A DNA stretch of 64,000 nt from a bacterium. Its GTDB lineage: Bacteria; Bacillota; Bacilli; Lactobacillales; Streptococcaceae. Shown piece by piece: positions 46,843 to 49,321 of the stretch (position 1 is its first letter; every line of letters begins with the position of its first letter). The notes beneath the pieces were generated by a model that was not told where the DNA came from, ran no database searches, and saw nothing but the letters and a program-made list of their open reading frames with translations. Position numbers and translations under genes: made by a program. The stretch lies in NCBI GenBank assembly GCA_905221085.1, contig CAJNBT010000002.1, positions 144,784 to 208,783 on the forward strand, written 5' to 3'.

Positions 46843-46860
46843 CGAATTTTTAATTCATTA

Positions 46861-46880
46861 CAAAACGCATAATATCAAGG
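46861..46880 (+). other. Left arm of a split terminator
   Basis: CAAAACGCATAATATCAAGG is nearly identical to the left arm of the intact terminator at 53408-53425. Its pairing partner lies 1.38 kb away at 48263-48282. Confidence 0.75.
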
Positions 46881-46883
46881 TTG

Positions 46884-47126
46884 ATGTGTACTGACCCCAA
46901 AAAGCAAGCACCTGTAAGCAACGTGCCGAAATGGTCAAATCCTGATTATGTCAACGAATTAGACCCAAAAATCGTTGATATGCTAGTAGAATTTCACAAG
47001 TCACAAGGCACTTTGGAAACTCCCGAGGCGCAAGCAGAAATCGCCCAAAAACGTGAAGAAATCGAGCAAAGGAGAGCTAAGCTTGAGGCTAAAAAACAAG
47101 AACTTTTGAACCGCTTGAACAAATAG
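46884..47126 (+). pseudogene. Gene remnant joined to an IS3-like end
   Basis: An 80-codon frame with a helical, charged C-terminus (EEIEQRRAKLEAKKQELLNRL, shown to 20 residues as EEIEQRRAKLEAKKQELLNR). The first codons come from TGTACTGACCCCAAAAAG (46887-46904), which resembles an IS3-family terminal repeat, and there is no ribosome site. It is best read as the 3' tail of an unknown gene fused to an IS fragment. Weak chance of being a true small protein. Confidence 0.45.
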
Positions 47127-47170
47127 AGTTTCGCAAGTATTATGCTTACAAATTACTTGAGCAATTAACT

Positions 47171-47214
47171 AAAATATAAACCCTGCCTTTATATCTAGGC
47201 AGGGTTTATATTTT
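47171..47214. terminator. Long bidirectional terminator
   Basis: AAAATATAAACCCTGCCT pairs perfectly with AGGCAGGGTTTATATTTT (18 bp) around an 8-base loop; it overlaps the stop codon of the minus-strand secreted protein. Confidence 0.9.
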
Positions 47215-47872
47215 AGAAATTCACGTAGGATGTTACGGTTTTTACATACCCAGTATAGTTTGAGTTTCTATAGTATTCAGTGATAAACTTCCATTTTCTT
47301 TGAGCAACATGGATATAAGTACTTGTTATGTAGTATGGATATGGGCTTTGTGAAACCAAGTAAGACTGATAAGCTTGTATACCAAAATATGCTCCACCAA
47401 TTATTTTACCCCATGTACCCCCTAATACAGAAGCTATTTTACCAATCGCATAACTTATTCCAGAACCAATCATGAAGTTAGCGAATGTGTTGGCTTCTTT
47501 ATTCCCATGTACTGTGTTGACGTAATTCCAAACATTAGGATCGTATGATCTAAAAGACATATTTAGGTCGATTTCATTCTTTTGATAAGCCATATAAAAT
47601 GCCCCATTGATATAGACGCCGTCAGCACGTCGTTCAATAGTGTCTACACTTCCATCTGGATTGACAACCTCAAGAACTTCATCGCTTAAAATATTTACTT
47701 GCGCATCTCCGAACCGCACTGATGAGCCATTCTCAAACTGAGCCTCACTAGATACAACTTTAGAGTTTGCCGATAAGCTATCATCAGCAAAAACAACAAG
47801 CGACGGGGAAATGCTAGACATACAGAAAATAGACATAACTAGCAAACACATGCATTTAAACATCTTAGACAT
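47213..47872 (-). CDS. Secreted protein, possible large bacteriocin
   Basis: A 219-residue protein with a clear signal peptide (about 1-29, cleavage after VFA), an acidic, Ser/Val-rich middle, then a Gly-rich hydrophobic stretch (about 130-170, FMIGSGISYAIGKI and GKIIGGAYFGIQ) and a Tyr-rich, basic C-terminus ending YVNF. The overall layout recalls the geobacillin-26-like family of unmodified, heat-labile bacteriocins, but I cannot confirm that without a search. AAAGGAG precedes the ATG. It is divergent from a 65-residue membrane protein and lies in an islet. Confidence 0.6.
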   Translation of the reverse strand: MSKMFKCMCLLVMSIFCMSSISPSLVVFADDSLSANSKVVSSEAQFENGSSVRFGDAQVNILSDEVLEVVNPDGSVDTIERRADGVYINGAFYMAYQKNEIDLNMSFRSYDPNVWNYVNTVHGNKEANTFANFMIGSGISYAIGKIASVLGGTWGKIIGGAYFGIQAYQSYLVSQSPYPYYITSTYIHVAQRKWKFITEYYRNSNYTGYVKTVTSYVNF

Positions 47873-47952
47873 AACGGAAACTCCTTTGTATTTTTGATTT
47901 TTTTCAACTTTTGTTATACAATAAAACCAAATAAAAAGAAAGCGGTAACAAT
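47873..47952. promoter_or_regulatory. Divergent promoter region between secreted protein and SMR-like gene
   Basis: TTGTTATACAATAA (about 47911-47924) is nearly palindromic and provides -10-like hexamers on both strands (TATACA or TACAAT on plus, TATAAC on minus). The two promoters would overlap, so expression of the two genes may be mutually exclusive or jointly controlled. Confidence 0.5.
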
Positions 47953-48150
47953 ATGCTTAAGGCGAAAATTTTTTATATATTTTTATGTTTGATCGTTATC
48001 GAAACTACAGGCTTGTTGTTGTTGAAAAAAGGCCTTGAAAAGGGTTATTTAGATACAGGAGCTATTATCCTCGCAGTTTTTTCATTTGCTTTTTACAACC
48101 TATGTTCATTCGTTTGGGTCTGCTCTACAATAAAAAACAATAAAAAATAA
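47953..48150 (+). CDS. 65-residue SMR-like membrane protein, possible immunity protein
   Basis: Two hydrophobic helices (about 5-24 and 34-56) and a short basic tail. The first helix reads VIETTGLLLLKKGLEKG and lines up with the EmrE helix carrying its essential Glu (an E then G then K pattern), and the protein ends where helix 2 or 3 of an SMR protein would. It may be a half-size SMR relic or a dedicated immunity protein for the divergent secreted protein. Start ATG follows a weak GAAAGCGG. Confidence 0.5.
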   Translation: MLKAKIFYIFLCLIVIETTGLLLLKKGLEKGYLDTGAIILAVFSFAFYNLCSFVWVCSTIKNNKK

Positions 48151-48208
48151 ATAGACGTATTTTCAAAAAAAGATTGCATATTTATCTTAGTAAAACGACG
48201 ATTCTGAG

Positions 48209-48242
48209 AGCTTTTCAGACTTTGTCTATCATTAGAAAAGCT
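48209..48242 (+). other. Inverted repeat without T-run
   Basis: AGCTTTTC (48209-48216) pairs with GAAAAGCT (48235-48242) over 18 bases. It may be a weak transcript end or an insertion scar. Confidence 0.4.
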
Positions 48243-48262
48243 TAGAGCACCAAGGGATAATA

Positions 48263-48282
48263 CCTGATAATATGCGTTTTTT
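48263..48282 (+). other. Right arm of the split terminator
   Basis: CCTGATAATATGCGTTTTTT complements the arm at 46861-46880 and matches the right arm of the intact copy at 53436-53455. Confidence 0.75.
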
Positions 48283-48292
48283 CATTATGAAA

Positions 48293-49321
48293 TTAATAGA
48301 TAAACATGGCATCGCCAAAACTAAAGAAGCGGTAGTGTTCTTGGATGGCATGGTGGTAGGCATCTAAGACTAATTCACGGCCTGCAAAGGCAGAAACCAG
48401 CATAACCAGAGTTGATTTTGGCAGGTGGAAGTTGGTTGAGAAGGCATCTACGACCTTCCATTCATAGCCAGGTTTGATAAAGATATTGGTCCAGCCAGAA
48501 TCTGCTTGGATTTGCCCATCAAACTTGGAACCAATAGTTTCCAAGGTGCGGATAGAAGTGGTTCCTACAGCGATGACGCGACCACCATTTTCCTTAACAG
48601 AGCGGAGAGTGGCAGCAGCTTCCTCAGAAAGTTGGTAGAATTCTGAGTGCATTTCGTGTTCATCCAGATTGTCCACAGAAACAGGTCTAAAGGTTCCGAG
48701 TCCGACATGGAGAGTCAAATAGACCAGATGGATACCCTTAGCTTGTATTTCTGCTAGCAGTTCTTTGGTGAAGTGAAGTCCAGCAGTTGGTGCAGCAGCA
48801 GAGCCACTTTCCTTGGCGTAAACGGTTTGATAGCGTTCGCGATCATCTAGTTTTTCATGGATATAAGGCGGTAGCGGCATTTCACCTAGACTTTCCAAAA
48901 CTTCTAAGAAAATTCCTTGGTATTCAAAGCGGACAATACGGCCTCCGTGGGTCAATTCTTCTGTAACGATAGCGCTGAGGCGACCATCACCAAAGCTAAC
49001 ACGAGTCCCGACCTTGAGGCGTTTGGCAGGTTTAGCCAGAACTTCCCACTCATCTCCACTAGTGTTTTTAAGGAGGAGCAGTTCCACATGACCTCCAGTT
49101 TCTTCCTTTTGACCATAGAGGCGGGCGGGGAGAACGCGGGTGTCGTTCATAACAAGGGCATCACCAGGTTCCAGCATATCAATAATAGAGTGGAAGTGTT
49201 TATCCTGCATTTCTCCTGTCTCACGATTGACGATGAGGAGTTTAGAGGCATCACGTTTTTCAAGGGGCGTTTGGGCAATCAATTCCTCTGGCAAGTGGAA
49301 GTCAAAATCAGCTGTATTCAT
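48293..49321 (-). CDS. queA: S-adenosylmethionine:tRNA ribosyltransferase-isomerase
   Basis: A 342-residue enzyme adding the SAM-derived epoxycyclopentane ring to preQ1 at tRNA position 34 in queuosine synthesis. The start [17 protein letters not shown] and the blocks [20 protein letters not shown] and [10 protein letters not shown] are diagnostic. ATG at 49333 is an alternative, but AGAAAG would touch it, whereas it is 11 bases from 49321. It is divergent from nagB. Confidence 0.93.

Follow-up and report, generated by a model that had tools for sequence, protein, structure and literature searches.

Two genes that face away from each other, one for a secreted protein and one for a small membrane protein, raise the question of what they do together in the 64,000-nucleotide stretch of mitis-type streptococcal DNA studied here (the window). 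The first encodes 219 aa on the minus strand (47213..47872, including the stop codon) and the second a two-helix protein of 65 aa on the plus strand (47953..48150); both assignments are based on the open reading frames and on homologues. An initial annotation had placed these divergent frames in an islet, with 80 bp between their start codons, and had suggested a bacteriocin whose immunity protein resembles half of an SMR transporter. Frames and spacing were recovered exactly. In our analysis the pair very probably represents an unnamed family of class III-type bacteriocins, each with a cognate membrane immunity protein.

The intergenic region shared by the two genes (47873..47952) was nearly invariant in the ten loci compared, its length being 80 bp in nine of them and 97 bp in one owing to a 17-bp duplication. 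A consensus scan detected the promoter-like sequence TTGATT-17-TACAAT here (47894-47922, plus strand), which is weak evidence because nine such sites were found within 46850-48300, compared with a mean of 5.2 (sd 2.6) in shuffled sequences. Beyond the toxin gene an additional frame, orf81, converges with it (46923..47126, plus strand; 67 aa from the GTG at 46923, or 81 aa if counted from a TTG). Between these convergent genes the sequence contains a perfect 15-bp inverted repeat with an 8-nt loop (47174..47211); it is absent from the output of the terminator scan and probably constitutes a bidirectional terminator of the toxin gene and orf81. The surrounding 1.3-kb unit (46898..48203) was recovered by blastn at 13 other loci with 92-97% identity and occupies two or more chromosomal sites. 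In agreement with the proposed islet, yihY (PF03631) and queA flank it on its two sides in the window, and it occupies the same position in eight other loci. In four loci the unit adjoins a glpF-like gene (this gene was checked in one of them, and the G105 site is outside these counts). At the glpF-side site of L061 (6479-9277) and L060 (1543-5029) the pair adjoins an Rgg regulator (TIGR01716, checked in L061), together with radical-SAM and transporter genes that, by eye, look like a separate peptide (RiPP) cluster.

By eye, a Sec-type signal peptide is recognised at the start of the 219-aa protein (residues 1-29; 47786..47872, minus strand), with cleavage after VVFA and before DD. Removal of this peptide leaves a mature toxin of 189-190 aa and 21.2-21.3 kDa without any Cys; Sec leader and mature mass agree with a class III bacteriocin. 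The signal peptide had already been pointed out in the initial annotation, and the same holds for two further features that were found again, a Gly-rich core (residues 125-176, 9 Gly in 52) and a Tyr-rich basic tail (residues 177-219, 9 Tyr in 43, pI 9.5). At E≤1, 568 homologous proteins were obtained with the 219-aa query and 129 with the 65-aa query, the best 120 being listed in either case; judged from sequence comparison, these numbers are more than chance. One cluster, P0015, named from S. pneumoniae and comprising 756 member sequences, is 91% identical to the window toxin. HMM searches of Pfam, NCBIfam and PHROG matched neither protein to a named family above cut-off. Some streptococcins are of the lactococcin 972 type, and identity with this type was rejected for the 219-aa protein, for which no Pfam family was found at E≤10.

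The distribution of both genes was determined in 284 genomes of the genus, counting matches at E≤0.01. Toxin matches occurred in 16 genomes and small-protein matches in 51, the latter splitting sharply into 21 genomes with E≤2e-24 and 30 with E≥5e-5; G197 (L016/L081) was dropped because only residues 1-36, essentially the signal peptide, were matched (E 0.0099). Window-like toxins with 66-96% identity were present at 13 loci in 11 genomes, giving 14 loci together with the window, and this form was confined to mitis-type streptococci among the genomes searched. The 65-aa gene was found in divergent orientation at all 14 loci. Its frame was disrupted at one of them (G107), the toxin frame at five: G100 carried a nonsense mutation, while frameshifts were seen in G097, G105, G107 and G109, so that nine of the 14 toxins were intact. 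Small genes that end two residues early (G001, G198) or run on (second copy in G201) were counted as intact. Absence of co-occurrence, or a small frame broken in most genomes with the secreted gene, had been named in the initial annotation as evidence against a bacteriocin and immunity pair. On both points the data speak for the pair, whereas the SMR nature of the partner had to be given up, as discussed below.

In ten further genomes the small gene was matched strongly, and the toxin not at all at E≤0.01. In seven of them the common segment measured 271-277 bp and started 14-18 bp outside the toxin start codon; it was 291 bp long with 79% identity in L073, and 216 and 205 bp long in L071 and L072, where its start lay 14 bp ahead of the small gene. 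A tblastn search with seven toxin queries (1e-3) detected no toxin remnant within about 4.5-5 kb of these orphan loci. All ten orphan frames were open, with a pN/pS of 0.52 overall and of 0.69 when the seven long-segment copies are taken by themselves. A single site next to lepA accounts for at least four of the copies (L064, L065, L066 and L069; lepA was checked for L065), and the ten are therefore not independent events. In comparison, orf81, which appears cytosolic and coiled-coil-like by eye, was located convergently beside the toxin gene in all 14 window-like loci and was present in 4/4 toxin-bearing genomes versus 0/20 genomes without a toxin match (ten with an orphan small gene and ten others). 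One weak extra match was obtained in G158, and the orf81 frame was disturbed in this genome and in G001. Hence orf81 travels with the toxin gene, with which it also shares the probable terminator. The small gene can outlast the toxin gene and orf81 was not seen to do so, which is the pattern expected of an immunity gene.

The weak small-protein matches correspond to a membrane protein of about 83 aa that was encoded beside potD in all 11 loci examined (L082-L087, L089, L091, L094, L097 and L098, of mitis type; PotD was checked for one locus). In L074 the protein paired with the divergent toxin shares 78% identity over 63 aa with the potD-site protein of L094, and 45% over 49 aa with the 65-aa protein of the window. 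The potD-site gene is thus most simply read as a putative orphan immunity gene of the L074 type.

Profile and tblastn searches revealed divergent toxins in other streptococci and beyond, in total 25 distinct loci after merging of copies (L076 with L078; L108, L109 and L110; L130, L141 and L151; L134 with L135; and the 14 window-like loci as one). Proteins P0241-P0251, which came without context, and H6 (P. polymyxa) and H9 (Listeria), known from listings alone, were left out. A gene for a small membrane protein overlapped the toxin gene or lay within 140 bp of it in 21 of the 25 loci (the window type, L074, L076/L078, L077, L079, L080, L107, L108-L110, L130 with its copies L141 and L151, L131, L132, L133, L136, L137, L138, L139, L145, L147, L148, L149 and L150). 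The hydropathy rule required at least two segments; 20 partners passed, and the L074 partner, which has one segment by the strict rule, was counted by homology because of its similarity to the window protein. With the same rule, 8 of the 222 control ORFs, all at least 150 aa long and drawn from 40 loci as well as the window, had such a neighbour within 200 bp; some of these controls represent the same region in related genomes and are thus non-independent. No recognisable partner was present at four loci: in L075 both genes were disturbed and one segment was seen, L140 (E 8e-4) had masked DNA alongside, L146 matched at E 1e-4, and L134/L135 contained a toxin remnant only.

The arrangement of the partner genes differed among loci, being divergent, upstream co-directional or downstream, and the small proteins of different subfamilies mostly exhibited no visible similarity to one another. 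Interrupted toxin frames occurred among the remote loci as well (L075, L077, L078, L080, L132, L133 and L137), and the partner was open in all of these except L075; in L077 the toxin had an in-frame stop and no recognisable signal peptide. Carriers included Listeria, Priestia megaterium, Paenibacillus polymyxa and Macrococcus records of the plasmid collection. Four toxin relatives were located on plasmids (Priestia, Paenibacillus, Macrococcus), with the small gene adjacent.

Several of these loci deserve a separate description. In L131 (96-1533; Lactobacillales) an AgrA-like response regulator adjoins and precedes the toxin homologue, after which two different membrane proteins of 74 aa are encoded; a second, shorter ORF at 96-371 has a start nearly identical to that of the toxin homologue, and the locus may be a multi-toxin bacteriocin locus. 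In the S. suis-like homologues of L107 (82-2085) and L110 (1411-3467) the small gene immediately precedes the toxin gene in the same orientation, and an XRE-type regulator in divergent orientation suggests regulated toxin expression; the label Rgg for these regulators, which were classified by eye, was dropped as no Rgg model matched at E≤1e-10. In L080 (4428-4841) the usual two-helix partner is replaced by a 137-aa protein that, by eye, seems to be composed of two hydrophobic halves. The homologue on a Paenibacillus polymyxa plasmid (L148, 2001-2738) is annotated as adenosine deaminase, a name that is probably wrong.

A different delivery context was encountered in L138, from the Bacilli genome G644. 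An open frame of 1864 codons ends there in RHS repeats and an RHS core (PF05593, E 2e-44; TIGR03696, E 2e-23), and the core is followed by a tip of about 100 residues that is a relative of the toxin C-terminal domain. Its identity is 69% over 105 aa with the C-terminal half of the stand-alone secreted homologue L136, from a genome of the same genus (G788); with the window toxin it amounts to 39% over 76 aa (pairwise E 2e-8). In profile-profile comparison the streptococcal set (A1) matched the wider set that includes the L138 tip (A6) with a probability of 99.1 and E 7e-19. Downstream of the RHS gene a 93-aa membrane protein is encoded that is 51% identical over 78 aa (E 8e-24) to the 109-aa membrane protein encoded divergently from the stand-alone toxin of L136; neither of these partners has detectable similarity to the 65-aa protein of the window. 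Thus, one domain is found on two delivery modules with a homologous partner beside both, as is expected of polymorphic toxins, albeit for a single RHS gene: the RHS case is one gene in one genome pair, with no second fusion among the family loci examined. Since the tip domain as well as the partner are homologous in both contexts, they appear to be shared between them, as in the polymorphic-toxin cassettes described in PMC3482391. On sequence grounds, no other single argument speaks as strongly as the RHS link for the C-terminal half as the toxin and the small membrane protein as its putative immunity factor.

The C-terminal toxin domain of the window protein comprises about residues 112-219 (47216..47539, minus strand), as delimited by sequence and profile comparison and by an AlphaFold2 model of residues 110-219. 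That model was usable (pLDDT 74.5, pTM 0.69), in contrast to the poor model of the full-length toxin, and predicted a strand, helices over model residues 20-66 and then three strands (beta-alpha-beta-beta-beta); a fold search with it gave no convincing match. Within this domain the Gly-rich hydrophobic core (residues 125-176; 47345..47500, minus strand) was hypervariable by both pN and sliding p-distance. Across the nine intact copies pN reached 0.166 in the core and 0.012-0.041 in other segments, and the sliding p-distance peaked at 0.237 at position 47410. With a pS of 0.164 the core pN/pS was 1.01, i.e. not above 1.

Variation of the core was compared with that of the immunity gene. In the nine intact pairs the distances of the two correlated at the protein level (r=0.77, 0/2000 permutations) and at the DNA level (r=0.80, 8/5000). 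Over the same loci the toxin outside the core gave r=0.18 with the immunity protein (P 0.16), the N-terminal part of the toxin, although it is located between core and immunity gene, gave r=0.00 for DNA (2163/5000), and the C-tail correlated weakly (DNA r=0.33, 210/5000). When the five broken loci were added, the correlation of core and immunity DNA decreased to r=0.37 in 14 loci (25/5000). Some weakening of this kind is expected, because broken toxins no longer select a matching immunity protein. The control gene orf81 correlated with the immunity gene too, with r=0.72 in nine loci and 0.41 in 14. The partial correlation of core and immunity given orf81 was 0.58 (11/5000) in the nine intact loci and 0.16 (400/5000) in 14, where orf81 and immunity given the core reached a higher value of 0.24 (82/5000). 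In view of the orf81 correlations, shared ancestry or lineage effects may lie behind the correlation of core and immunity gene. Matching of the core to the immunity protein in specificity is nevertheless likely from these comparisons.

We propose that the 219-aa protein would be exported via Sec with removal of its signal peptide, and that its N-terminal beta-rich part (about residues 34-111) would present a toxin domain formed by the C-terminal 105 or so residues; beta-strands are predicted to hold the hydrophobic, Gly-rich helical segment of that domain between them. This domain may act at the membrane of the target cell, either by inserting there or by jamming a membrane protein; the hydrophobic variable helix and the predicted membrane partners in 21 of 25 loci argue for such a site. 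The divergently expressed 65-aa protein would block this step in the membrane of the producer. The hypervariable helical core probably determines which immunity protein is effective, so that strains would differ in their toxin and immunity types, and toxin-free strains could retain the immunity gene as a shield.

Other readings of the pair have to be weighed against this proposal. The view that the 65-aa protein is a half-size SMR transporter, exporting the toxin or a toxic ion, originates from a Glu in its first helix and a superficial match to the first helix of EmrE. Four transmembrane helices in about 105-110 aa, the first of them with an invariant Glu, characterise SMR transporters. By contrast, two hydrophobic segments were recognised in the 65-aa protein, no SMR model was among its Pfam or NCBIfam hits at E≤10, and no SMR structure was obtained at E≤10 in PDB sequence searches with the protein itself or an eight-row profile. 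The Glu is not conserved either: at the aligned position several close (potD-site) relatives and the L074 partner carry Gln while others have Glu, and the remaining partner subfamilies show no recognisable counterpart. Moreover, the adjacent proteins at other loci have two or three segments and no visible likeness to the 65-aa protein. Profiles, PDB searches, helix number, size and the Glu thus all stand against SMR membership, which was rejected, and a transporter of this kind is extremely improbable.

An unlikely alternative in terms of fratricide or self-limitation holds that the toxin mainly hits the kin of the producer in a programmed state, such as competence or high density, and that the small protein protects cells in that state. 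Mitis-type streptococci, to which the window-like form was confined in the genomes searched, are known as a group for natural competence, and quorum-type regulators were seen near homologues (AgrA-like in L131, and Rgg about 450 bp beyond the L061 pair). However, the 80-bp intergenic region does not contain the competence cin-box, TACGAATA, and persistence of the small gene without the toxin in ten genomes suits defence against others. The secreted protein might also be a signal or surface factor instead of a toxin, its membrane partner serving as receptor, chaperone or regulator. Genes for a secreted and a membrane protein around a common intergenic region would fit such roles, as would a core pN/pS that is near 1 and not above it; because a relative of the domain occupies the toxin-bearing tip position of an RHS protein, the partner is kept in the absence of the secreted protein, the core is hypervariable and plasmids carry members of the family, we regard them as very unlikely.

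The pair is accordingly taken as a probable Sec-secreted bacteriocin and its dedicated membrane immunity protein, with a toxin domain related to the tip of an RHS protein. If this is true, a large bacteriocin without a name in the family libraries searched is present in pneumococci and their oral relatives, and the immunity genes have spread more widely than the toxin, which would bear on displacement among strains of the human airway. It would further join two fields that are usually kept apart, bacteriocins and RHS tips, and would yield a toxin domain that has unusually small, testable immunity proteins. A variable core beside a conserved frame makes toxin and immunity matching directly testable. 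With a slight preference only, we also favour a broader interpretation, in which an unnamed membrane-targeting domain of Bacillota would serve both as a free Sec bacteriocin and as an RHS tip, accompanied in each case by a small membrane immunity protein of its own; among mitis-group streptococci, pneumococcus included, the hypervariable helical core would set allelic specificity, and the orphan immunity genes at lepA, potD and elsewhere would form a layer of resistance that bacteriocin surveys leave uncounted.

Among known systems, dysgalacticin with its immunity factor DysI and streptococcin A-M57 are among the closest, compared by description only. Dysgalacticin contains an essential disulphide, whereas the mature window protein has no Cys, which argues against dysgalacticin itself. 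In size and layout these systems are nearly the same as the 219-aa protein: dysgalacticin of S. dysgalactiae subsp. equisimilis, as described in PMC8308785, is a class III bacteriocin made as a 220-aa preprotein with a 28-aa Sec leader (21.5 kDa), has an adjacent gene for the membrane-associated DysI, and blocks the sugar PTS. It is plasmid-encoded, while the window toxin lies among chromosomal genes. A resemblance to geobacillin 26, raised initially, is plausible for layout alone and by description. According to PMC13176240, geobacillin 26 and alicyclobacillin 24 are Sec-secreted class III proteins of 245 and 238 aa with about 25% mutual identity, with an alpha-helical core supported by beta-elements, a hydrophobic C-terminal segment and a proposed membrane-associated action; the main text of that paper does not use the word immunity and describes no partner. 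The toxin and its homologues gave no geobacillin 26 hit in NCBIfam, where the presence of such a model is uncertain.

In the species group of the window toxin, 20 pneumococcal bacteriocin clusters have been screened, comprising cib, streptococcins, streptolancidins and others (PMC10438807); the term Class III is absent from the main text of that study. No account of the toxin family was found in the literature searched, which was open-access, with subscription papers mostly outside. The pore-forming domain Tox-WTIP was discarded as a candidate, as the window protein lacks its motif Wx[ST]IP. A conceptual parallel is offered by the RHS/YD-repeat polymorphic toxins, in which, as PMC3482391 describes, C-terminal domains are carried on varied delivery proteins with immunity genes alongside. 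There the toxin domain forms the tip of a delivery protein, whereas here it mostly belongs to a small free secreted protein. Small membrane partners are known from these systems as well: immunity proteins with two transmembrane segments (Imm17, Imm-CdiI) may act at the membrane, as PMC3482391 suggests, and the 65-aa protein would be a further protein of two helices with such a role.
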